Below are positions 37,157 to 62,889 of a DNA stretch of 64,000 bases, piece after piece. A program made the position numbers and the translations under genes. The number at the start of each line of letters is the position of its first letter. Within the stretch, counting starts at the first letter, position 1. The notes below the pieces were generated by a model. The model worked only from the letters and a program-made list of their open reading frames with translations. It had not been told where the DNA came from and ran no database searches. Source of the DNA: Tipula vernalis (Eukaryota > Arthropoda > Insecta > Diptera > Tipulidae). The DNA lies in NCBI GenBank assembly GCA_958295665.1, contig OY282559.1:256743545-256807544 (forward strand), read 5' to 3'.

Positions 37157-39738
37157 CCTTCATGTGACTGAATATCAAAATACCTTTAGCAGACTGGAAT
37201 GGGAACAAATGTACCCAAGTAAAAATATTAATAGAGAAATTGACTAAAAAAATATTAAAATTATTTCTGTTTGAAGAGAAAATGAAATATGTAAAAATTA
37301 TCAATAAACAAACCTAAACTATAAAAAGGACGGCAAAAAAACGAAAAAATAACGGAAGAAAACAGTTATAAAACGTATACAAACTATCATTTTTTCGAGT
37401 TTATGTTATTTTCTTGTGTGATTTATAGTGCAAACCGATTAGTGAAAGACGGGTTAATTTTTATTTTGTAAAATCAATACATACATACATATTACTATGT
37501 CAAAATTCGGATTTGTGTTTGAGGCTGGGCCAAGTGGTGTTTTTGCTACAAGACGCCGTGTATCCGCGTAAGTTTTTATTCAATATATATACATATCTGT
37601 TTAATTTATTGGTTGTTGTTTGGGTTGAATGTTTTTTTATAGGTTGACACCTGCTGAAATACAGGCTATATTAGAGGAAGACTCTGAAGAAGAGCCATTT
37701 GTGCCTTCTGATGATGAAGAGTACATTCCGGAAACAGTAGTTCTTGCTTCAGAAGAATCTGATGCTGAGCACGACGCTGTTGTCGAACGAGAGGAATATG
37801 TTTCTGATGAAAGCGATGATGACGAAGAAACGCAGTTGCCAGATACAAATAATTTGACGGCTAAAGATGGCACAACTTGGAGTGCCTCTCCTCTCGTACA
37901 AACACAAACGTTGAGTCGTAATATTATGCGCGAAAGAGGAGGAGAAGCGAACTTCAGCAAAATATTTACTGCGAAAGAAACGTTTCGATCCATTATTTCA
38001 AATGAAATGATTGACATTATTCTACGTGAAACCAATCGTAAAGGTCAACGAATTACTGACAGTCTCAACAGCCAATTATTTGAAAAGTATCCTGATCCGG
38101 CTAAACGACCAATTAAAAAAAATTCATACCATTCACAGAAGAGGAGTTCGATTGTTTTTTGGGAATCCTAATTGAAGCAGGGTCCACAAATCGAACAATG
38201 AGCATGTCTCAGAATTATGGAGGACAGATTTTTCGCCCCTTATTCGAGCATCAATGTCTCGTGATCGCTTCAAGATGATGCAACGATTCATACGCTTTGA
38301 TAACGAATATACTTGTGCTGACCGTGCAAGAAGTGATAAGGCTGCTCCAATACAGGACATATGGCAGATGCTGAATTGCAATTTACAAAAGGGGTACAAA
38401 CCATATGAATGTATTACTGTGGATGAGCAATTGTTTCCGTATAGAGGACACACAAAATTTACTCAGTATATTCCGTCCAAGCCAGCCAAGTATGGCATCA
38501 AAGTTTTCTGGGCTTGTGATGCTTCAAATGCGTATCCTCTAAAAGGTGAAGTTTATACGGGAAAGCCTCCTGATGGTGAACGTCAAAAAAACGTCGGCAA
38601 ACGTATTGTTTTAGATCTGGTAGCTGCTTACAAAGGATCAGGAAGGAATATAACCACAGATAATTTCTTTACCTCAATGGAATTAGCTCGTGTGCTTAAA
38701 TCGTGGAACATGACTTTAGTAGGAACTGTCAGAAAAAACAAAAAATATTTGCCTCCGAACATGAAACCATCCAAATATAGAGATGTATTTTCGACAAATT
38801 TCGGATTCAATAGAGATGCCACTGTATGTTCCTATGTTCCGAAAAAAAATAAATCAGTGATCCTTTTGTCGACGATGCATGTGACTAATGATCTTTCTAA
38901 TACTGCAACTGCAAAACCAGAAATTATAAATTATTATAATAAAACAAAAGGTGGCGTAGACGCAGCCGATAAAATGTTGATGGCATACACAGTGAAGCGC
39001 AGAACTAATCGCTGGCCACTTGCGATGTTTTACAATATGATAGATGTCGCCGCTTTAGCTGCATATGTTATATATATGGAACATAATAGGCATTTCAAAA
39101 AAACAGACCGGCGTAGACAATTTTTGAAGGATCTTTCAAAAGAGTTATGCTTGAATTCAGTAGAATCACGTTCAATCAAACCTCATGTGATTGGAAACCA
39201 TTTCACACGGAATTCAATCGAATTAGTCCTTGGACGCGTAATTTCTCCACAATCAGTTACACCAGGAGGTAGTGTTGCCACTCGACAGAATTCTGGACCA
39301 GCTGCTGTTGTTGGGCGTTGCTATATTTGCACTGAAGGAAATCGAAAAGATAGAAAACACGGAAAAGTTGCTTTACATGTGGCAAACCTGTTTGCGCTGA
39401 ACATTCGGTAAATAAACCAACATGTAATAAATGTAACTGAATAAAATTAGTATTTCTTACAATTTTTCTTAATTTTCATTAAAAAAAACTGAACATTCCC
39501 TTATAAAATACTATGGGTACAAAAGTACCCATTCGAGCCTGCTAAGGGTGTAAAAACTTTGGGTCACATGTTCACATGGAAAACGTGGAAATTTGTTGTT
39601 GAATTTTTCAATACATAAAGATGTTGAAACAGTTTAAGATGTCGGGAAGTTTCAGGCACCTACGAATTCTGGATCATACAAAAATATATAGTCAAAAGTG
39701 CATTTGGGTACAATTGTACCCATCCAGTCACATAAAGG
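37157..39738 (+). mobile_element. piggyBac-superfamily DNA transposon, 2.58 kb
   Basis: The left end CCTTCATGTGACTGAAT and the complement of the right end, CCTTTATGTGACTGGAT, form terminal inverted repeats with two mismatches over 17 bp. The right end is followed by TTAA (39739-39742), the piggyBac target; the left side has TAAA, probably a mutated TTAA. Subterminal palindromic sites of the form GGGTAC-N4-GTACCC occur at 39515-39530 (GGGTACAAAAGTACCC) and 39707-39722 (perfect palindrome GGGTACAATTGTACCC), with a diverged version GGGAACAAATGTACCC near 37200-37215. The element encloses one transposase gene. Confidence 0.85.
37497..39440 (+). pseudogene. piggyBac transposase, one intron, three one-base frameshifts
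   Basis: Exon 1 (37497-37567) encodes MSKFGFVFEAGPSGVFATR and ends at a GTAAGT donor. Exon 2 starts after the TTTTTTATAG acceptor at 37643 with the acidic LTPAEIQAILEEDSEEEPF. The transposase core follows: MSRDRFKMMQRFIRFDNE, TVDEQLFPYRG (first Asp), NITTDNFFTSMELA (second Asp), KGGVDAADKMLMAYTVKRR (later Asp pair) and RRTNRWPLAMFYNMID. A C-terminal Cys-rich domain begins CYIC and, after a frame change near 39363, continues with SCFTCGKPVCAEH and a final C-x2-C before TGA at 39438-39440. Two other single-base shifts lie at the A8 run near 38116-38123 and at the GGG near 38180. All the core aspartates remain, so decay is recent. A piggyBac transposase excises and inserts at TTAA. Confidence 0.88.
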
Positions 39739-48564: not shown

Positions 48565-48728
48565 AAAAATATTTAAACTGCTGATTCAACTTTTCACACA
48601 AGTAATAAGTAAATTATTTAAATGTTTACACGGTGGTAGTAAAATTGCAAATTCGCGAAGATTGAGCACTTTTCTGTTTGATGACGTCAAAGTCGCGGAA
48701 GTGTTAAGATCAACTGATTTACGAAACA

Positions 48729-49338
48729 TTGAAGATTCCCTGCGAACATTTCGTGCATTTGAAGCCCAATTTAGTACTGGCTTATTTTGAAAAGACTTCA
48801 ACCTCTGCTTTTAAGGTTGTGTTTCTGGATACACGGTTCCGTGGTTGCTATTTTCATGTGGGCCAAATTATTGGGCGCCGCGTTCAAGAAAGAAGGTTTC
48901 ACAAGTATTTGCGGTACAAATGAAACTGTAGCACTTAATATTCGAATGATCCAGCCCTTAGCGTTCATTCATCCCGACGAAATTCCAGCCTTTTTTAAAG
49001 AACGTTTAAATCACGTTGATGCACTCACGCGAAACATTGCTGTCTGGTTTGGAAATAACTATGTTCTACCTGACAAGCGAACCAACAAATCTTCTTGCTA
49101 TGCACCACATTTTTGGTCTGTGTATGATCAAACTTGTGAAGGTCTGCCGCGGACCATTAACAACGCCGAAGCGTGGGATCGACGACTTCAGGTAATTACT
49201 GGAAAATCACACGTCGGAACATACTGCCTAATTGGGCACCTGCAGAAAGAATACATGTATGCTACATTTGAGGTTACAAGCACGCAGCTGGTCATACTTG
49301 GCCAACGAAATGGACTACCTGCGCTCAATCGCATATAA
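48729..49338 (+). pseudogene. Mutator-like (MULE) transposase, C-terminal remnant
   Basis: Two overlapping frames share one domain. The first (48729-48923) gives FRGCYFHVGQIIGRRVQE, the G-C-x-F-H-x-x-Q signature of MULE transposases. The second (48787-49338) continues NIRMIQPLAFIHPDEIPAFF, then APHFWSVYDQTCEGLPRT and INNAEAWDRRLQVI, the W-x-x-Y plus T-x-N-x-x-E-x-W block typical of insect MULEs. A frameshift near 48920 joins them. The N-terminal DDE residues are not recovered to the left, where the Jockey leader lies. The relic ends 130 bp before the outer end of the large inverted satellite. Confidence 0.65.
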
Positions 49339-49469
49339 TTTGTCAGTGTATTAGTTTGATTAATTGTCATTTTAGTTGAATTTTAAAATTATAATAAATT
49401 TAAATGGAATTAAATGTAATAATATATGTTTGAATTTCAAATAATAAACCATATTTTCTCTGACCAAAT
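49339..49469. other. Short AT-rich gap between the MULE relic and the satellite structure
   Basis: No feature seen. It could be the 3' sequence of the MULE, but no inverted repeat was assigned. Confidence 0.3.
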
Positions 49470-49957
49470 ATAATACATGGATGTGAAGTTTTCCACAAAT
49501 TCCACAGATTCTATATATGTATTAGTTTCACACTGCTAAACTGAATTCCAATTGGAAAATTTACGATTCATATTGAAATATTTAGTACTAAATATGTAAT
49601 TTCATTACAAAATCTTTCGAATAAAAGTGATTTCCTGGTAAAGTAAGACCATTCAGAGGCAATATTAGTGGAATTTAGTCAAAATAATATATGGACCATA
49701 AAAAAAAGAATCCAAACCATTGGCAAGTGGCATAAATGAGATTTAACAATTTTTAGTCTTAATCGCCAAAAAAAAAATGTCCAGTTTAAATTAATTCTTG
49801 GTTTTAAAAATAGTTATTCGGTATAATGGACAACAATTTTAAGCAGCCACTCCATGTACTATCGGATCCCTTGTTCAAATATCAAGTAGTAGGTATTAAC
49901 GGTCAATGAACGATTTCAGACCAAATTTCAATTGGTACTTAAAGTTTCCAGACTAAT
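49470..49957. repeat. Left edge of the inverted satellite structure
   Basis: 49590-49957 is an inverted, diverged copy of 59740-60090. Landmarks are ATATTAGTGGAATTT, AATATATGGACCATAA, TTTTTAGTCTTAATCGCC and GGACAACAATTTTAAGCAGC. The outermost part has GGATGTGAAGTTTTCCACA at 49479-49497, whose inverted partner is at 61162-61182. From about 49720 inward the sequence can be aligned as degenerate 167-bp monomers that become regular near 49958. Confidence 0.75.
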
Positions 49958-52900
49958 TTATTCCCCTGGATAGGGGTGAGTTTTTGGGCTCGATGGATGT
50001 AGTAGTAGGCCATCTACTACATCTACTATCAGAAAGTGAATTCAAATCTCTGGCAAGTGGTGCTAAGGCCGATTTATCAGTTTCAGCTAAAATATCAACA
50101 CCTAAAGCTTCCAAAGTAATTTATTCCCCTGGATAGGGGTGAGTTTTTGGGCTCGATGGATGAAGTAGTAGGCCGTCTACTACATGTACTATCCGGAAGT
50201 GAATTCAAATCTCTGGCAAGGGGTGCTAAGCCGATTTATCAGTTTCAGCTAAAATCTCAATTGTTAGAAAAAGTTTCCAGGCTAATTTATTCCCCTGGAT
50301 AGGGGTGAGTTTTTGGGCTCGATGGATGTAGTAGTAGGCCGTCTACTACATGTACTATCCGGAAGTGAATTCAAATCTCTGGCAAGGGGTGCTAAGGCCC
50401 ATTTATCAGTTTCAGCTAAAATCTCAATTGTTAGAAAATGTTTCCAGGCTAATTTATTCCCCTGCATAGGGGTGAGTTTTTGGGCTCGATGGATAAAGTA
50501 ATAGGCCGTCTACTACATGTACTATCCGAAAGTGAATTCAAATCTCTGGCAAGGTGTGCTAAGGCCCATTTATCAGTTTCAGCTAAAATCTCAATTGTTA
50601 GAAAAAGTTTCCAGGCTAATTTATTCCCCTGGATAGGAGTGAGTTTTTGAGCTCGATGGATGGAGTAGTAGGCCGTCTACTACATGTACTATCCGGAAGT
50701 GAATTCAAATCTCTGGCAAGGGGTGCTAAGGCCCATTTATCAGTTTCAGCTAAAATCTCAATTGTTAGAAAAAGTTTCCAGGCTAATTTATTCCCCTGGA
50801 TAGGGGTGAGTTTTTGGGCTCAATGGATGTAGTAGTAGGCCATCTACTACATGTACTATCCGAAAGTGAATTCAAATCTCTGGCAAATAGTGCTAAGGCC
50901 GATTTATCAGTTTCAGCTAAAATATCAACACCTAAAGTTTCCAAAATAATTTATTCCCCTGGATAGGGGTGAGTTTTTGGGCTCGGTGAATGTAGTAGTA
51001 GGCCAACTACTACATGTACTCTCCGGAAGTGAATTCAAATCTCTGGCAAGGGGTGCTAAGGCCCATTTATCAGTTTCAGCTAAAATCTCAATTGTTAGAA
51101 AAAGTTTCCTGGCTAATTTATTCCCCTAGATAAGGGTAAGTTTTTGGGCTCGATGGATGAAGTAGTAGGCCGTCTACTACATGTACTATCCGGAAGTGAA
51201 TTCAAATCTCTGGCAAGGGGTGCTAAGGCCCATTTATCAGTTTCAGCTAAAATCTCAATTGTTAGAAAAAGTTTCCAGGCTAATTTATTCCCCTGGATAG
51301 GGGTGAGTTTTTGAGCTCAAAGGATGAAGTAGTAGGCCGTCTACTACATGTACTATCCGGAAGTGAATTCAAATCTCTGGCAAGGGGTGCTAAGGCCGAT
51401 TTATCAGTTTCAGCTAAAATCTCAATTGTTACAAAAAGTTTCCAGGCTAATTTATTCCCCTGGATAGGGGTGAGTTTTTGAGCTCGATGGATGAAGTAGT
51501 AGGCCGTCTACTACATGTACTATCCGGAAGTGAATTCAAATCTCTGGCAAGGGGTGCTAAGGCCCATTTATCAGTTTCAGCTAAAATCTCAATTGTTAGA
51601 AAAAGTTTCCAGGCTAATTTATTCCCCTGGATAGGGGTGAGTTTTTGGGCTCAATGGATGTTGTAGTAGGCCATCTACTACATGTACTATCCGAAAGTGA
51701 ATTCAAATCTCTGGCAAGTGGTGCTAAGGCCGATTTATCAGTTTCAGCTAAAATATCAACACCTAAAGCTTCCAAAGTAATTTATTCCCCTGGATAGGGG
51801 TTAGTTTTTGGGCTCGATGGATGAAGTAGTAGGCCGTCTACTACATGTACTATCCGGAAGTAAATTCAAATCTCTGGCAAGGGGTGCTAAGGCCCATTTA
51901 TCAGTTTCAGCTAAAATCTCAATTGTTAGAAAAAGTTTCCAGGATAATTTATTCCCCTGGATAGGGGGTAGTTTTTGCGCTCAATAGATGTAGTAGTAGG
52001 CCATCTACTACATCTACTATCAGAAAGTGAATTCAAATCTCTGGCAAATGGTGCTAAGGCCGATTTATCAGTTTCAGCTAAAATATCAACACCTAAAGTT
52101 TCCAAAATAATTTATTCCCCTGGATAGGGGTGAGTTTTTGGGCTCGGTGAATGTAGTAGTAGGCCAAATACTACATGTACTATCCGGAAGTGAATTCAAA
52201 TCTCTGGCAAGGGGTGCTAAGGCCCATTTATCAGTTTCAGTTAAAATCTCAATTGTTAGAAAATTTTCCAGGATAATTTATTCCCCTGGATAGGAGTGAG
52301 TTTTTGAGCTCGATGGATGGAGTAGTAGGCCATCTACTACATGTACTATCAGAAAGTGAATTCAAATCTCTGGCAAGTGGTGCTAAGGCCGATTTATCAG
52401 TTTCAGCTAAAATATCAATACCTAAAGCTTCCAAAGTAATTTATTCCCCTGGATAGGGGTGAGTTTTAGGGCTCGATGGATGGAGTAGTAGGCCGTCTAC
52501 TACATGTACTATCCGGAAGTAAATTCAAATCTCTGGCAAGAGGTGCTAAGGCCCATTTATCAGTTTCAGCTAAAATCTCAATTGTTAGAAAAAGTTTCCA
52601 GGCTAATTTATTCCCCTGGATAGGGGTGAGTTTTTGGGCTCGATGGATGAAGTAGTAGGCCATATTTTACATGTACTATCCGCAAGTGAATTCAAATCTC
52701 TGGCAAGAGGCGCTAAGGCCGATTTATCAGTTTCAGCTAAAATCTCAATTGTTATAAAAAGTTTCCAGGCTAATTTATTCCCCTGGATAGGGGTGAGTTT
52801 TTGAGCTCGATGGATGGAGTAGTAGGCCGTCTACTACATGTACTATCCGGAAGTGAATTCAAATCTCTGGCAAGGGGTGCTAAGGCCGATTTATCAGTTT

Positions 52901-55900
52901 CAGCTAAAATCTCAATTGTTAGAAAAAGTTTCCAGGCTAATTTATTCCCCTGGATAGGGGTGAGTTTTTGGGCTCGATGGATGAAGTAGTAGGCCGTCTA
53001 CTACATGTACTATCCGGAAGTGAATTCAAATCTCTGGCAAGGGGTGCTAAGGCCCATTTATCAGTTTCAGCTAAAATCTCAATTGTTAAAAAATATTCCA
53101 GGCTAATTTAGTAGGCCATCTACTACATGTACTATCAGAAAGTGAATTCAAATCTCTGGCAAGTGGTGCTAAGGCCGATTTATCAGTTTCAGCTAAAATA
53201 TCAACACCTAAAGCTTCCAAAGTAATTTATTCCCCTGGATAGGGGTGAGTTTTTGGGCTCAATGGATGAAGTAGTAGGCCGTCTACTACATGTACTATCC
53301 GGAAGTGAATTCAAATCCCTGGCAAGGGGTGCTAAGGCCGATTTATCAGTTTCAGCTAAAATCTCAATTGTTAGAAAAAGTTTCCAGGATAATTTACTCC
53401 CCTGGATAGGGGGTAGTTTTTGGGCTCAATAGATGTAGTAGTAGGCCATCTACTACATCTACTATCAGAAAGTGAATTCAAATCTCTGGCAAATGGTGCT
53501 AAGGCCGATTTATCAGTTTCAGCTAAAATATCAACACCTAAAGTTTCCAAAATAATTTATTCCCCTGGATAGGGGTGAGTTTTTGGGCTCGATGGATGGA
53601 GTAGTAGGCCGTTTACTACATGTACTATCCGGAAGTAAATTCAAATCTCTGGCAAGAGGTGCTAAGGCCCATTTATCAGTTTCAGCTAAAATCTCAATTG
53701 TTAGAAAAAGTTTCCAGGCTAATTTATTCCCCTGGCTAAGCGTAAGTTTTTGGGCTCGGTAAATAAAGTAGTAGGCCGTCTACTACATGTACTATCCGGA
53801 AGTGAATTCAAATCTCTGGCAAGGGGTGCTAAGGCCCATTTATCAGTTTCAGCTAAAATCTCAATTGTTAAAAAAGTTTCCAGGCTAATTTATTCCCCTG
53901 GATAGGGGGTAGTTTTTGGGCTCAATAGATGTAGTAGTAGGCCATCTACTACATCTACTATCAGAAAGTGAATTCAAATCTCTGGCAAATGGTGCTAAGG
54001 CCGATTTATCAGTTTCAGCTAAAATATCAACACCTAAAGTTTCCAAAGTAATTTATTCCCCTGGATAGGGGTGAGTTTTTGGGCTCGATGGATGGAGTAG
54101 TAGGCCGTCTACTACATGTACTATCCGGAAGCGAATTCAAATCTCTGGCAAGAGGTGCTAAGGCCCATTTATCAGTTTCAGCTAAAATCTCAATTGTTAT
54201 AAAAAGTTTCCAGGCTAATTTATTCCCCTGGATAGGGGTGAGTTTTTGAGCTCGATGGATGAAGTAGTAGGCCGTCTACTACATGTACTATCCGGAAGTG
54301 AATTCAAATCTCTGGCAAGGGGTGCTAAGGCCCATTTATCAGTTTCAGCTAAAATCTCAATTGCTAGAAAAAGTTTCCAGGCTAATTTATTCCCCTGGAT
54401 AGGGGTGAGTTTTTGGGCTCGATAAAGAGAGTAGTAGCCCGTCTACTACATGTACTATCCGGAAGTGAATTCAAATCTCTGGCAAGGGGTGCTAAGGCCC
54501 ATTTATCAGTTTCAGCTAAAATCTCAATTGTTAGAAAAAGTTTCCAGGCTAATTTATTCCCCTGGATAGGGGTGAGATTTTGGGCTCGATAGATGGAGTA
54601 ATAGGCCGTCTACTACATGTACTATCCGGAAGTGAATTCAAATCTCTGGCAAGAGGCGCTAAGGCCGATTTATCAGTTTCAGCTAAAATCTCAATTGTTA
54701 AAAAATATTCCAGGCTAATTTATTCCCCTGGATAGGGGTGAGTTTTTGGGCTCGATGGATGTAGTAGTAGGCCATCTACTACATGTACTATCAGAAAGTG
54801 AATTCAAATCTCTGGCAAGTGGTGCTAAGGCCGATTTATCAGTTTCAGCTAAAATATCAACACCTAAAGCTTCCAAAGTAATTTATTCCCCTGGATAGGG
54901 GTGAGTTTTTGGGCTCGATGGATGAAGTAGTAGGCCGTCTACTACATGTACTATCCGGAAGTGAATTCAAATCTCTGGCAAGGGGTGCTAAGGCCCATTT
55001 ATCAGTTTCAGCTAAAATCTCAATTGTTAGAAAAAGTTTCCAGGATAATTTACTCCCCTGGATAGGGGGTAGTTTTTGGGCTCAATAGATGTAGTAGTAG
55101 GCCATCTACTACATCTACTATCAGAAAGTGAATTCAAAACTCTGGCAAATGGTGCTAAGGCCGATTTATCAGTTTCAGCTAAAATATCAACACCTAAAGT
55201 TTCCAAAATAATTTATTCCCCTGGATAGAGGTGAGTTTTTGGGCTCGATGGATGGAGTAGTTGGCCGTATACTACATGTACTATCCGGAAGTGAATTCAA
55301 ATCTCTGGCAAGAGGTGCTAAGGCCCATTTATCAGTTTCAGCTAAAATCTCAATTGTTAGAAAAAGTTTCCAGGCTAATTTGTTCCCCTGGCTAAGCGTG
55401 AGTTTTTCGGCTCGATAAATAGAGTAGTGGGCCGTCTACTACATGTACTATCCGGAAGTGAATTCAAATCTCTGGCAAGGGGTGCTAAGGCCCATTTATC
55501 AGTTTCAGCTAAAATCTCAATTGTTAGATAAAGTTTCCAGGCTAATTTATTCCCCTGGATAGGGGGTAGTTTTTGGGCTCAATAGATGTAGTAGTAGGCC
55601 ATCTACTACATCTACTATCAGAAAGTGAATTCAAATCTCTGGCAAATGGTGCTAAGGCCGATTTATCAGTTTCAGCTAAAATCTCAATTGTTAGAAAAAG
55701 TTTCCAGGCTAATTTATTCCCCTGGATAGGGGTGAGTTTTTGGGCTCGATGGATGTAGTAGTAGGCCATCTACTACATGTATGATAAGAAAGTGAATTCA
55801 AATCTCTGGCAAGTGGTGCTAAGGCCCATTTATCAGTTTCTGCTAAAATATCAATACCTAAAGCTTCCAAAGTAATTTATTCCCCTGGATATCGGTGAGT

Positions 55901-56668
55901 TTTAGGGCTCGATGAATGAAGTAGTAGGCCAACTACTACATGTACTCTCCGAAAGTGAATTCAAATCTCTGGCAAGGGGTGCTAAGGCCCATTTATCAGT
56001 TTCAGCTAAAATCTCAATTGTTAGAAAAAGTTTCCAGGCTAATTTATTCCCCTGGATAGGGGTGAGTTTTTGGGCTCGATGGATGAAGTAGTAGGCCGTC
56101 TACTACATGTACTATCCGGAAGTGAATTCAAATCTCTGGCAAGGGGTGCTAAGGCCCATTTATCAGTTTCAGCTAAAATCTCAATTGTTAGAAAAAGTTT
56201 CCAGGCTAATTTATTCCCCTGGATAGGGGTGAGTTTTTGGGCTCGATGGATGAAGTAGTAGGCCGTTTACTACATGTACTATCCGGAAGTGAATTCAAAT
56301 CTCTGGCAAAGGGTGCTTAGACCGATTTATCAATTTCAGCTTAAATCTAACTACCTAAAGTTTCCAAACTAATTTATTCCCCTGGATAGGGGGTAGTTTT
56401 TGGGCTCGATAGATGGAGTAGTAGGCCATCTACTACACGTACTATCCGGAAGTGAATTCAAATCTCTGGCAAGAGGCGCTAAGGACGATTTATCAGTTTC
56501 AGCTAAAATCTCAATTGTTATAAAAAGTTTTCAGGCTAATTTATTCCCCTGGAAGGGGGTGAGTTTTTGGGCTCGATGGATGTAGTAGTAGGTCAGCTAC
56601 TACATGTACTATCGGAAAGTGAATTCAAATCTCTGGCAAGGAGTGCTAAGGCCAATTTATCAGTTTCA
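49958..56668 (+). repeat. 167-bp satellite array, about 40 monomers, forward orientation
   Basis: Successive GCTAATTTATTCCCCTGG anchors are 167 bp apart (for example 50281, 50448, 50615, 50782). Each monomer has a hairpin GTAGTAGGCCGTCTACTAC, then TGTACTATCCGGAAGTG, TTCAAATCTCTGGCAAGG, GCTAAGGCCCATTTATCAG and TTTCAGCTAAAATCTCAA. A second subtype has TAAAATATCAACACCTAAAG and GGCCATCTACTACATCTACT, is a few bases shorter, and is interspersed irregularly (near 50090, 50925, 51743, 52087, 52412, 53193, 53528, 54028, 54858, 55188 and 55850). One monomer is truncated at 53100-53112. The frames of about 62 codons on both strands are by-products of the repeat; 167 is not a multiple of 3, so they stop after one monomer. 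Confidence 0.95.
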
Positions 56669-57137
56669 AATCCACATTCATCAATAAATATTTTTCTTTT
56701 CTAATTAGAATAAAATTGTATCACAGACACAATTTAAGTAATGAACTTTAGTACATGGAATGTTGTATATACCGTGTTTTAGTACTTTAGCTTCACATAC
56801 ATTTTAGCAAGAGGTGCTAGTCCGTGTACAAAATTGTTTGTTTACATTTTTTTCATATGGAGTTTCGATTAAAACATGTCCATTAAAATTGCAAAATTGT
56901 GAAATAAATTTATCTTGAAAAAACATTGAAGGTTACATTAAAAATTTAATATACTGTTTAACATATTTTATTAAAACTAAATAATCGGTTGAGGCTTTAA
57001 TATCTAAGAAAACTACAAATAAAAATGTACTAACTTTTCATATTTTATGAGGTTATGTCCATTGTTTTGAAAATTTATTATCTCATATTTTAGATTTGAG
57101 CAAAATTTTGTATTAAATTTGGACTCATTTTTTTCTT
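56669..57137. other. Central spacer between the opposed arrays
   Basis: The forward array breaks within a monomer (after CAGTTTCA) and the spacer runs to CTTCCGGATAGTACG, where the inverted array begins. No gene. About 280 bp of it (56840-57120) is a direct, diverged copy of 60246-60525, sharing AAAATTGCAAAA, ATTTATCTTGAAAAAAC, TAACATATTTTATT and TTTGAGCAAAATTTTGTAT. Confidence 0.8.
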
Positions 57138-59740
57138 CCGGATAGTACGTGTAGTAGTTGGCCTACTACTACATTCATCGAGCCCAAAAACTCACCCCTA
57201 TCCAGGGGAATAAATTAGCCTGGAAACTTTTTCTAACAATTGAGATTTTAGCTGAAACTGATAAATGGGCCTTAGCACCCCTTGCCAGAGATTTGAATTC
57301 ACTTCCGGATAGTACATGTAGTAAACGGCCTATTACTCCATCCATCGAGCCCAAAAACTCACCCCTATCCAGGGGAATAAATTAGCCTGGAAACTTTTTC
57401 TAACAATTGAGATTTTAGCTGAAACTGATAAATGGGCCTTAGCACCCCTTGCCAGAGATTTGAATTCACTTCCGGATAGTACATGTAGTAAACGGCCTAT
57501 TACTCCATCCATCGAGCCCAAAAACTCACCCCTATCCAGGGGAATAAATTAGCCTGGAAACTTTTTCTAACAATTGATATTTTAGCTGAAACTGATAAAT
57601 GGGCCTTAGCACCCCTTGCCAGAGATTTGAATTCACTTCCGGATAGTACATGTAGTAGACGGCCTACTATTTCATCCATCGAGCTCAAAAACTTACCCGT
57701 ATCCAGGGGAATAAATTAGCCTGGAAACTTTTTCTAACAATTGAGATTTTAGCTGAAACTGATAAATGAGCCTTAGCACCCCTTGCCAGAGATTTGAATT
57801 CACTTCCGGATAGTACATGTAGTAGACGGCCTACTACTACATTCACCGAGCCCAAAAACTCACCTCTATCCAGGGGAATTAATTATTTTGGAAACTTTAG
57901 GTGTTGATATTTTAGCTGAAACTGATAAATCGGCCTTAGCACCATTTGCCAGAGATTTGAATTCACTTTCTGATAGTAGATGTAGTAGATGGCCTACTAC
58001 TACAACCATCGAGCCCAAAAACTACCCCCTATCCAGGGGAATAAATTAGCCTGGAAACTTTTTCTAACAATTGAGATTTTAGCTGAAACTGATAAATGGG
58101 CCTTAGCACCCCTTGCCAGAGATTTGAATTCACTTCCGGATAGTACATGTAGTAGACGACCTACTATTTCATCCATCGAGCTCAAAAACTTACCCGTATC
58201 CAGGGGAATAAATTAGCCTGGAAACTTTTTCTAACAATTGAGATTTTAGCTGAAACTGATAAATGGGCCTTAGCACCCCTTGCCAGAGATTTGAATTCAC
58301 TTCCGGATAGCACATGTAGTAGACGGCCTACTACTACATTCACCGAGCCCAAAAACTCACCTCTATCCAGGGGAATTAATTATTTTGGAAACTTTAGGTG
58401 TTGATATTTTAGCTGAAACTGATAAATCGGCCTTAGCACCATTTGCCAGAGATTTGAATTCACTTTCTGATAGTAGATGTAGTAGATGGCCTACTACTAC
58501 ATCCATCGAGCCCAAAAACTACCCCCTATCCGGGGGAATAAATTAGCCTGGAAACTTTTTCTAACAATTGAGATTTTAGCTGAAACTGATAAATAAGCCT
58601 TAGCACCCCTTGCCAGAGATTTGAATTCACTTCCGGATAGTACATGTAGTAGCTGACCTACTACTACATTTATTGAGCCCAAAAACTCACCCCTATCCAG
58701 GGGAATAAATTAGCCTGGAAACTTTTTCTAACAATTGATATTTTAGCTGAAACTGATAAATCGCCCTTAGCGCCTCTTGCCAGATATTTAAATTCACTTC
58801 CGGATAGTACATGTAGTAGCTGGCCTACTACTCCATCTATCGAGCCTAAAAACTACCCCCTATCCAGGGGAATAAATTAGCCTGGAAACTTTTTCTAACA
58901 ATTGAGATTTTAGCTGAAACTGATAAATGGGCCTTAGCACCCCTTGCCAGATATTTGAATTCACTTCCGGATAGTACATGTAGTAGACGGCCTACTACTT
59001 CATCCATCGAGCCCAAAAGCTCACCCCTATCCAAGGGAATAAATTAGTCTGGAAACTTTTTATAACAATTGATATTTTAGCTGAAACTGATAAATGGGCC
59101 TTAGCATCCCTTGCCAGAGATTTGAATTCACTTCCGGATAGTACATGTAGTAGATGGCCTACTACTTCATCCAGCGAGCCCAAAAACTCACCCCTATCCA
59201 GAGGAATAAATTAGCCTGGAAACTTTTTCTAACAATTGAGATTTTAGCTGAAACTGATAAATGGGCCCTAGCGCCTCTTGCCAGAGATTTGAATTCACTT
59301 CCGCATAGTACATGTAGTAGATGGCCTACTACTTTATTCATCGAGCTCAAAAACTCACCCCTATCCAGGGGAATAAATTAGCCTGGAAACTTTTTCTAAC
59401 AATTGAGATTTTAGCTGAAACTGATAAATGGGCCTTAGTACCCCTTGCTAGATATTTGAATTCACTTCCGGATAGTACATGTAGTAGACGGCCTACTACT
59501 TGATCCATCGAGCCCAAAAGCTTACCCCTATCCAGGGGAATAAATTAGCCTGGAAACTTTTTATAACAATTGATATTTTAGCTGAAACTGATAAATGGGC
59601 CTTAGCACCCCTTGCCAGAGATTTGAATTCACTTTCGGATAGTACATGTAGTGCTAGCTGTGTAGCTGACGTACTTCGCTGTCCATCGATTCTAAAAAGT
59701 ACCCCCTACCCAGGGGAATAAATTAGCCTGGAAACTTTTC
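57138..59740 (-). repeat. 167-bp satellite array, about 16 monomers, inverted orientation
   Basis: The same monomer reads on the minus strand, with anchors such as CCAGGGGAATAAATTAGCC every 167 bp or so. Both subtypes occur; the second is near 57897 and 58397, exactly 500 bp apart. The last monomers (from about 59640) degrade, with TAGTGCTAGCTGTGTAGC inserted in the hairpin. The array is less than half the length of the forward one, so the palindrome is strongly asymmetric. Confidence 0.95.
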
Positions 59741-61191
59741 GTACCAATTGAGATTTTATCTGACATCGTTCATTGACCGTTTACACATACTTCTAGATAT
59801 TTGAACTAAGGATGCGATAGTACATGTAGTAGCTGCTTAAAATTGTTGTCCATTATCTCTATTAACTATTTCTTATATCAAGAATTAATTTAAACTGGAT
59901 ATTTTTTCTGGCGATTAAGACTAAAAATTGTTAAATGTCATTTACTCCACTTGCCAGTGATTTGGATTCATTTTCTTATGGTCCATATATTATTTTGAAT
60001 AAATTCCACTAATATTGCCTCGGAATGATCTTATTTTCCCACGAAATCACTTTTATTCGAATGATTTTTTAAAGAAATTACATTTTGAATGCAGTATATT
60101 TGAATTCCAATTGGAACCAAATAATAAATATGTTGAACTAAAACTATTTGATATTTTTGTGGTTTGTAACTTTGGTTTCTAGTTTTAGAACTTCGATGTT
60201 TGATTGAACAAGCTTAACTGGTAGCAGAAAGCTATAGATCGTTCTTGATTACATTTTTTTATATGAAATACCAGTCCAATAAAATTGCAAAAATGTTAAT
60301 TAAAATTATCTTGAAGAAACGCTGAAGGTTATAATAAAAATCTGAAATACGATTTAACATATTTTATTTAAATTAAATAATCCGCTGACCCTTTATAATC
60401 AAAGAAAATTGCAAATAAAATGAGGTCATTTTTCGTTTTTTATGAAATTATGTCTGTTGTGTTTGAAATTTATTAGCAAACAAAATATGAGATTTGAGCA
60501 AAATTTTGTATTTAACAGAAAATAAAGAAAACGTTTGTTTGTAAGTTGCATCGAAAAATATAGATTTAATAATAAGTTTAGTTGATAAATCAGCTATAAA
60601 GGTGTTAGAATTGGCTGTTTTATTTCATCGTTTTCCTGGATATTAAAGGGTTATGGATTATTCCCTTTTCAAAATACATGACACCAATCTATTGTAAATT
60701 ATTATTATTACTTTAAACTTCATATCGTGGCATTTGTTTTTAGCAAAACTTCATATAAAACAAAATAAATAAACGTTTTTGTATACTGACTAGCGGATAT
60801 AAACGAACTGGCGTTAAATAAATTCAATTAAATTAGTTTAACATTCCGTTACTACTGTGCTTAAAAACTGTTTTTATTATATAATTGAGAATAAACAATT
60901 CACCGTTGTATAGTAATATCAAATACTAAATATCGTTATCTCAAATTAAATTAGTTTTACGTATTGTATTAATAATAATTTATTTGAACAAAAATTATAT
61001 TGCATTGATTTTATTCGGTTTTTTAAATCGAAATTTAGTAAAATTATATTATACGGATTCTTAACAGTGTACAATCGCACCAACACATGAAAAACTAGTT
61101 AGAATCCAATACGATTTGTTTTTTTCCAATATGATTTGTATACGTATTACTGTGGAAAAAAGTGTGGAAAACTTCACATCCATATATAATA
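59741..61191. repeat. Right edge of the inverted satellite structure
   Basis: 59741-60090 is the inverted counterpart of the left edge. 60246-60525 is the direct copy of the central spacer. 60526-61149 has no partner on the left. The outer end 61150-61191 holds TGTGGAAAACTTCACATCC, the inverted match of the left outer end. No gene is supported; the frame at 61116-61325 crosses the Tc1 border and is not real. Confidence 0.7.
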
Positions 61192-61199
61192 CATACCTA

Positions 61200-62842
61200 C
61201 ACTGTATCAAAAAATTGTCCGTACAGCACTCGGTTAAGAAAACATTGATAAATAAAACAATTACAAATCAAACAAAAAATTCAGTTTTAATTTTTTTAAA
61301 ACTCAAATTACATTTAAGAACCTGAAAAAAATAATAATCATGATATAAATTAAGTAACTTTCACATTTGATAAGATTTACTATTTAAACTGCCTAAAATG
61401 ATCTCAAATAATTGTCCGTACACACAAAGAAGTTGAGGGAATTTGGTAAAAAAAGTTAGGTCTAATATTTGGTTTTGTAACCTATCCATGAAATTACACT
61501 TTGCAACCTTCTTTTCATTGAGAAAGCCAACTTCCGAGTTATTTCGGGGGGAATTTTTGGCCCATTCCTCCATACTGACCCGTTTTAATTGTTCCTTGGC
61601 GCTAATTTGGTGTTCACGGATCTTTCGCTCCAAATAATGGCATAAATTATCAATAAGGTTGTGATCTGGTGGCTGGGGAGGATGAGGAAGTATTGACTTT
61701 ACATTGTACAATAACCATTCCTTTATCAGCTTTGACGAATGTTTCGGGTCATTGTCATGTGCGGAGCGAAAATCTTGCCAAGTCCCATTTTCTCAGCACT
61801 TATTAACAAATTACCCTTCAAAATATCCAATTAATTAAACCGGTTCATTATGAAGGTCAAATGTCCTACGCCCCTTCAGCTAAAAGCTTTTCCAACCATT
61901 AAACTTCCGCCACCATGTTTTACTTAGGTTCAGTGTTGGGTTTCCGCCACACCATAACTCGCCCATCTGAACCAAAAATGTTATATTTCCTTCCGTCTGA
62001 GGGAATAACATTTTCACAGAACTCTTTGGGCTCACTCACATATCCCAATGCATATTCCAAGCGCTTTTAAATTTTGTTTTTGTCGATAAATACATTTCTT
62101 GCGTGTCGCACATCATCGATACTCTTGTTTATGGAAAATATTGCGTATTGTCTGAGGTTCTATCGCTCCTTTTCAGCGTTGATAAACTTTGGCTGCGATC
62201 GTTGGAGCGATAAGCTTTCGATTCTGTTTTATTGCCTTCTCTATTAGATGTATTTGAGGTGTGTTCAGCTTTCAGTTGCGACCACGCTCAACAACCATCT
62301 CTAGTGATTTGGTTTTTTGGGAGTTCTGGATGATATATTGAATCGAAGGTCGCGGGCAATTAGTTATTTTGAAAATTTCTGTAAACTTTTACCTTCACTC
62401 TCCAATTTAATGATCAATTTTTTTAATTTCTACACGATTTTTGGTACGAGAATAACAAATTTTTAATTAACTGGACAATATTTAATTCCCCATGAAAAAA
62501 GTACGACTAATTAAATTTTACGCAAAAAAAAAGTTCGTAATTTACGGTTAGTTAAAAATAGGAGTACAACAAATAAGAAATTATTAATGTGCTAGTGTTA
62601 ATTTTCACAAAAGTGCAAGTGTACGGACAATTATTTGAGATCGTTTTAGGATGTTTAAATAGTAAATCATATGAAACGTAAAAGTAAATTAATTTGCTTC
62701 ATGATAATTATTATTTTCAGGTTGTTAAATGTAATTTGAGTTTAAAAAAAATAAAAACTGAATTTTTTGTTGGTTTTGTAATAGTTTTTTTCATCAATTT
62801 TTCTTTAACCGAGGGGTGTACGGACAATTTTTTGAGACAGTG
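61200..62842 (-). mobile_element. Complete Tc1/mariner element with IR/DR-type ends
   Basis: TA at 61198-61199 and 62843-62844 flank inverted ends of about 225 bp. Each end carries two direct sites: the outer CAAAAAATTGTCCGTACA (at 61208-61225 and complementary at 62818-62835) and the inner CAAATAATTGTCCGTACAC (at 61403-61421 and complementary at 62622-62640). Two transposase-binding-like sites per end in a long inverted repeat is the IR/DR layout of Sleeping Beauty-type Tc1 elements. Length 1,643 bp is normal. The transposase inside (minus) is broken. It is inserted a few bases outside the right end of the satellite structure. Confidence 0.88.
61440..62440 (-). pseudogene. Tc1-family transposase, dead
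   Basis: On the minus strand the N-terminal helix-turn-helix region has KLESEGKSLQKFSK and a later EKAIKQNRKLIAPTIAAKVY. The catalytic core follows: YNIFGSDGRVMVWRKPN (the block normally containing D-E-S-K-F and G-S-D-G, with DES altered to DGR) and, near 61660, PPDHNLIDNLCHYLERKIR, where the family has S-P-D-L-N-P-I-E-N-L-W. The catalytic Glu of that block reads Asp here. The C-terminal EQLKRVSMEEWAKNSP is also typical. Several frameshifts and stops separate the blocks. A Tc1 transposase would cut and insert at TA. Confidence 0.8.
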
Positions 62843-62889
62843 TATATATTAAATTTTTGAATAATTGACGATTGGGGTTATGAGTTTGA

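Follow-up and report, generated by a model that had tools for sequence, protein, structure and literature searches.

Satellite DNA is commonly attributed to local unequal exchange, and it is hard to see how it comes to be scattered across a genome. A 64,000-nucleotide stretch of the genome of Tipula vernalis (Diptera; GenBank assembly GCA_958295665.1, contig OY282559.1, positions 256,743,545 to 256,807,544 of the forward strand; the whole stretch is called the window here) contains two large arrays of one satellite facing in opposite directions. The question raised by this locus is whether the arrays are a satellite in the ordinary sense or the arms of a transposable element. We conclude, with a probability of about 0.88, that the locus holds a nonautonomous member of a young family of foldback-type cut-and-paste DNA transposons, probably Mutator-like elements (MULEs), and satellite DNA appears to have been moved around the genome as part of this transposon.

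The element occupies window positions 49477 to 61183 (11,707 bp). Its layout, with array boundaries determined using Tandem Repeats Finder and wrap-around alignment, is as follows.

49468-49476, no strand: left target-site duplication, ATATAATAC, an exact direct repeat adjoining the tip
49477-49497, forward strand: left terminal inverted repeat tip, 21 bp, an exact inverted match
49477-49923, forward strand: left flanking domain, the inner part of which shows inverted homology to the right edge and contains diverged monomer sequence
49924-56668, forward strand: forward satellite array, 39 full monomers of 163 to 167 bp plus partial ones
56669-57134, forward strand: middle or inner domain (spacer), 466 bp, where many other copies have a longer middle
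57135-59763, reverse strand: inverted satellite array, 15 full and some partial monomers
59764-60105, reverse strand: right edge, the inverted homolog of the left edge, holding diverged monomer sequence
60106-61183, reverse strand: right terminal domain, without a full counterpart at the left end
61163-61183, reverse strand: right terminal inverted repeat tip, 21 bp, an exact inverted match
61184-61192, no strand: right target-site duplication, ATATAATAC, an exact direct repeat adjoining the tip

A preliminary description, made from the letters of the window alone, had reported about 40 forward and 16 inverted monomers, a spacer of 470 bp (56669 to 57137), and inverted homologous edges; all three features proved real, with the counts and the 466-bp spacer listed above and an identity of 86.4% over 367 columns between the edges (49572 to 49938 versus 60105 to 59741). 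It had also noted a 19-bp inverted match at the outer ends. The match is exact (49479 to 49497 and 61163 to 61181), although its right copy begins at 61163 and not, as had been given, at 61162, and it can be lengthened to 21 bp, ATGGATGTGAAGTTTTCCACA, with 49477 and 61183 as its outermost bases (the element tip is also written ATGGATGTGAAG). None of 100 shuffles gave two such matches when up to three mismatches were allowed. Touching both tips is the exact 9-bp direct repeat ATATAATAC, which was absent from that description; the chance of a 9-bp repeat of this type was 3.75e-5 at random window positions and 3.3e-4 for AT-rich 9-mers.

Copies elsewhere in the 1.27-Gb host genome (the three largest contigs seen were 464, 412, and 371 Mb) carry most of the argument. 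A 490-bp query from the left end gave 734 candidates, of which 40 were scored; further members of the family may therefore exist. The result comprised 41 rows, with at least 40 close copies at 92 to 100% identity over nearly the whole query; 25 of the 40 matches start exactly at the position of 49477, and the other 15 (window included) start at query bases 1 to 6 or 10. Flanking sequences visibly differ outside the common tip at the 7 plus-strand loci inspected out of 20, the other 13 being on the minus strand. For the ten best left-end matches besides the window, 20 kb inward was taken, together with extra sequence for two copies (2.0 and 6.8 kb) and pieces of a third, giving 11 copies with that of the window (e01).

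In all ten of the other copies, the left domain and edge are followed by the forward array. Loci with the edges beside the array are therefore not confined to the window, in agreement with the very large foldback-type transposon that the preliminary description had proposed. Reading extended to both ends for 8 of the 11 copies (window included), and exact duplications of 8 to 9 bp adjoin the tips in all eight, i.e., in 7/7 of the complete copies other than the window's. These eight measure 11,707, 21,035, 8,962, 13,029, 17,934, 9,336, 6,693, and 25,440 bp and are bounded, in the same order, by ATATAATAC, TTGGCTTTG, TACAAGAT, GCTTTTCA, AATTTTGA, TCAGAAAT, CCATTGACC, and AAAGTTACT. The duplications differ in sequence between copies, and their size is 8 bp in four and 9 bp in four. 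Ends are 98 to 100% identical between copies (among the first seven complete ones), and the right terminal domain is present in all eight copies whose right end was read, window included. Dispersed copies with target-site duplications and composite, array-bearing inverted repeats are the structural hallmarks of a foldback-type DNA transposon.

The opposed arrays are themselves a recurrent feature, being present in seven of the eight complete copies (window included; e09 has no inverted array). This bears on a palindromic chimera of the library or the assembly, for which it can be said that the inversion junction is known from the assembly alone. As the preliminary description had argued, the arms are of unequal length and the edges have diverged (by 14%); the arms are also unlike in sequence. 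Moreover, the opposed arrays recur in 6/7 of the other complete copies, on three chromosomes and with differing lengths and duplications. We rejected an assembly chimera on the latter ground, and an artifact of either kind is hardly credible.

The copies have a common plan: left domain, forward array, inner domain, middle, inverted inner domain (where kept), inverted array, right edge, and right terminal domain. Array length varies from 1.5 to 9.3 kb per arm, one arm being absent in e09, and the middle ranges from none (e07 and e09) to >10 kb (e10). Over 450 bp, the middle of the window copy is 98 to 99% identical to the inner domain found in e04, e06, e10, and e11, and the window copy therefore looks like an internal-deletion derivative. 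Its ends are unequal, the right end being about 1 kb longer (60106 to 61183). Within this right terminal domain, positions 60245 to 60515 repeat spacer positions 56838 to 57117 in direct orientation and in diverged form (76%). In e07 (L031 and L032), arrays of 7.4 and 8.7 kb, with about 44 and 52 monomers, stand head to head and form a 16-kb inverted repeat with almost no spacer.

Do the arrays travel with the element, or did an independent host satellite become captured by, or invade, a smaller transposon, the arrays being passengers that expanded after each insertion? Capture had been offered in the preliminary description as the alternative to a very large foldback-type transposon. In its favor are the strong variation in array length between copies, the weak sharing of monomer order between the window array and other copies, and the state of the window arms, which draw on one monomer pool. 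The two arms have one consensus (0/167 positions differ, with no fixed differences). Minor variants that occur two or more times number 50 in the forward arm and 42 in the inverted arm, and 33 of them are found in both. Arm-specific monomers were looked for in the window and rejected (within-minus-between identity, 0.0013; permutation value, 0.16; reached by 4/54 rotations). Exchange between arms or between copies would account for one monomer pool despite the 14% difference between the edges.

Against capture, the edges shared by the copies hold diverged monomer sequence. Local BLAST matches to monomers are at about 70 to 77% in both edges, with those of the left flanking domain at about 70 to 72% over about 115 bp. 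The right edge scored 49 in local alignment to monomers, above all 200 shuffles (maximum, 27), and the left edge scored 26, which is not beyond its shuffle maximum of 26. The boundary between array and inner domain is identical in e01, e03, e04, e06, e08, e10, and e11. Furthermore, identity over the outermost 500 bp of the forward arrays is 95 to 99.8% in the 19 copy pairs compared, versus 89 to 90% for arm against arm within an element (six elements).

Monomer order was compared by alignment with monomer-size gaps, using one shuffle of monomer order per pair. Same-arm pairs from different copies beat the shuffled order in 10/10 cases, by 0.3 to 3.7 points. Sharing was strongest for the inverted arrays of e04 and e02 (e04R/e02R, 98.1 versus 94.3) and the forward arrays of e07 and e11 (e07F/e11F, 98.4 versus 96.0) and of e06 and e07 (e06F/e07F, 98.5 versus 96.4), and e09F/e07F (96.5 versus 96.1) was at the low end. 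Because monomer order is partly shared between copies, the arrays seem to travel with the element. Copies at different sites therefore seem to have inherited parts of their arrays, with monomers gained and lost since, and this is weak for the array of the window. With diverged monomers in the shared edges and a partly shared monomer order, capture is the less likely course, and we consider it very unlikely.

A candidate transposase gene is present in the family. Between the arrays of e02 (21.0 kb) lies a broken transposase-like gene, in three consecutive pieces in one frame with two in-frame stops. A genome search with its largest piece gave 97 rows (93 of 2,216 candidates were scored). Two matches besides e02 itself were 100% identical over 443 amino acids (aa), each within a 1,039-aa open frame, and the remaining matches were at 32 to 94%. 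The 1,039-aa frames lie about 25 kb (e06; C2:61472727, running downward) and about 32 kb (L012; C2:272750977, running upward) inward of left ends, in the same orientation. The e06 frame is unbroken (1,035 aa from the first Met; 23.5 to 26.6 kb inward of the left end), and parts of the e02 middle match e06 at 93 to 99%, with 99.5% identity over 2,572 bp of the gene region. Neither the inverted array nor the right tip of e06 was found within 0 to 19.8 and 22.8 to 29.3 kb from its left end. Many of the matches lie in open frames of >1,000 aa (e.g., L045 to L048), which suggests that the wider protein family is expanded and in part intact.

We aligned five paralogs, i.e., the e06 protein and four open frames of 772 to 806 aa that are 36 to 41% identical to it. 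A DDE-like triad is invariant in all five (D of DATG, D of VVDW, and E of ENWF/ELWF). In the C-terminal domain, C, H, and D are likewise invariant in 5/5 paralogs, at Cys and His boxes that we take to be the catalytic boxes of C19/C98 ubiquitin or SUMO hydrolases. All ten PDB matches of the five-member profile were ubiquitin hydrolases (E values, 0.005 to 1.2), the best of which spans only 33 positions around the His box. Pfam Peptidase_C98 was matched in four of the five paralogs (best E value, 7.8e-4) and UCH in three (best, 0.02); neither was matched in the e06 protein, the element family's own member. The C-terminal domain is thus weakly indicated to be ubiquitin-hydrolase-like.

The catalytic core of the protein had no convincing match in Pfam or PDB, and the assignment to MULEs therefore rests on the 8- and 9-bp duplications and the DDE-like pattern. 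Target-site duplications measure 8 bp in hAT and P elements and 7 bp in Galileo. A foldback-type element from outside the MULEs, for example of hAT or P type, would be compatible with the lack of a Pfam MULE match in the core and with the 8-bp duplications of four of the eight copies. Against this, 8 and 9 bp occur within one family (four copies each), both within the 8 to 10 bp expected of MULEs, and the same two sizes are described for the MULEs of Aedes aegypti in the available text of PMC5225508. No P-type or THAP domain was matched in the 1,035-aa protein in Pfam at E values of up to 10. We regard another superfamily as unlikely and the family as probably Mutator-like. Cores of such a kind presumably occur in NOF-like MULE proteins of insects.

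Several points weigh against a mobile, array-carrying MULE family as set out above. No movement was observed. The ten copies are the best left-end matches and hence biased toward young ones, and three of the 11 (e03, e06, and e11) were not followed to the right end. The unbroken gene of e06 is accordingly in a copy whose right end was not reached and of which 19.8 to 22.8 kb is unread, and L012 was read only about 2 kb inward, not up to its gene. In forward arrays, the innermost 500 bp discriminate less well than the outermost, with identities of 91 to 99% between copies and 92 to 96% between the arms of one element. The forward array of the window shares monomer order only weakly with other copies (e01F/e07F, 94.0 versus 93.7; e01F/e02F, 95.0 versus 94.3). 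Opposite arms within an element have no clear order in common in three pairs (95.4 versus 95.2 for the window arms, 94.7 versus 95.3, and 95.8 versus 95.4), although one test of the window arms gave a permutation value of 0.0028.

If the family is a transposon of this kind, the product of an unbroken gene copy would bind the tips, excise the whole element with its arrays, and reinsert it. The arrays would lengthen and shorten through unequal exchange or slippage, and internal deletion would remove the middle, leaving nonautonomous copies such as that of the window to be moved in trans. The arrays may double as repeated binding sites, because the tip 7-mer ATGGATG recurs in the monomers. It is present in 30/54 full monomers, always oriented as the arm's own tip (25 on the plus strand and 0 on the minus strand of the forward array; 0 and 6, respectively, in the inverted array), and it occurred on that strand in 0.9% of 5,000 shuffled consensus monomers. 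This recurrence is a post hoc observation and is only suggestive of monomers as extra putative binding sites. Folding of the monomer gave a hairpin that was not beyond shuffles (z, -0.97), and no structured RNA was matched in the element in Rfam at E values of up to 0.5.

A more far-reaching version of this mechanism is tentative, and we put it somewhat below even odds: a cut-and-paste family that moves satellite DNA in bulk, with autonomous copies of about 30 kb or larger, array arms of several kilobases, and a 1,035-aa transposase with a deubiquitinase-like domain, would mobilize array-armed derivatives of up to 25 kb, the arrays being functional in the ends. The transposase ending in a ubiquitin-hydrolase-like domain, if true, would add a possible route of action on host factors. 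The existence of complete elements bounded by exact duplications suggests that array-scale satellite DNA was inserted as part of a DNA transposon. According to the part of a review available to us, the efficiency of DNA transposition drops significantly above 6 kb of cargo (PMC6431247); copies of 6.7 to 25.4 kb with exact duplications make this limit, and its relief, testable.

Other transposon remains are present in the window. Elements of insect type lie near the foldback element, and among 86 relatives of a neighboring ORF the only two with a named source come from insects, which is consistent with an arthropod genome. Directly left of the element, 48726 to 49338 (forward strand) is the decayed C-terminal remnant of what is probably a MULE-type transposase, with a subthreshold match to Pfam MULE (13.8 bits versus a cutoff of 27.6) read through one frameshift and no homolog past an E value of 0.001 in a protein search. 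As a source of the element's own transposase it was rejected, since it lies outside the target-site duplications. A few bases right of the right duplication, 61198 to 62844 is an element with 226-bp inverted ends (87.6% identity) and broken frames between them, by its look presumably Tc1-like. At 38176 to 39411 (forward strand), a 411-aa open frame encodes a DDE_Tnp_1_7 (piggyBac-type) transposase domain (PF13843; E value, 2.7e-58), and this protein had no relatives in viral_contigs. Searches with DNA patterns of the foldback element also gave no relatives (four patterns in viral_contigs and two in genome_contigs).

The closest known systems are Tetris, Foldback, and Mutator-like elements. In the titles and abstracts of open-licence literature, we found no complete array-armed elements of such size and no such fused transposase, and four sequence strings of the element occurred in no open-licence paper searched. 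Galileo, as far as described in the available text of PMC3573991, is alike in its long terminal inverted repeats (TIRs), with internal tandem repeats unequal between arms and a proposed exchange of sequence between copies; it differs in belonging to the P superfamily, with a P-type transposase and TIRs of up to about 1.26 kb. Tm1 of Meloidogyne is a member of a Mutator/Foldback family with 8- to 10-bp duplications and tandem repeats in its TIRs, and it differs in its repeats of about 14 bp, its length (2,593 bp), and its 496-aa protein (PMC3169594, text in part). Among MULEs of Aedes aegypti, Muta1 is described in the part of PMC5225508 consulted as a type 2 Foldback element of 3,198 bp with a 504-aa product and 12-bp repeats. 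A survey of 4,268 genomes gives, in its available parts, complete arthropod MULEs of 1.4 to 10.0 kb, transposases of 313 to 1,136 aa, and a longest TIR of 1,193 bp in the text and 1,527 bp in one table row (PMC13359780). Arthropod MULEs thus resemble the present family in their duplications of 8 or 9 bp and in complex TIRs with subterminal tandem repeats (PMC5225508 and PMC13359780), and the copies of up to 25 kb found here exceed the lengths given for them.

The nearest parallel in plan is Tetris of Drosophila virilis and D. americana, which, in the available text of PMC4079207, consists of a flanking domain, tandem repeats of about 220 bp, an inner domain, and a variable middle, with duplications of 8 to 10 bp. 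Its TIRs reach 1,735 bp in three structurally complete sequenced copies, and a transposase was not found. Its arm repeats expand into long arrays, which fiber-FISH placed between two flanking domains, and arrays of up to 66 repeats occur elsewhere in the assembly. Compared by description, the two families have the same foldback plan, duplications in the same size range, and arm repeats that expand into arrays; the T. vernalis family differs in its arrays of 1.5 to 9.3 kb per arm, its complete copies of 6.7 to 25.4 kb with duplications, and its gene-bearing copy.

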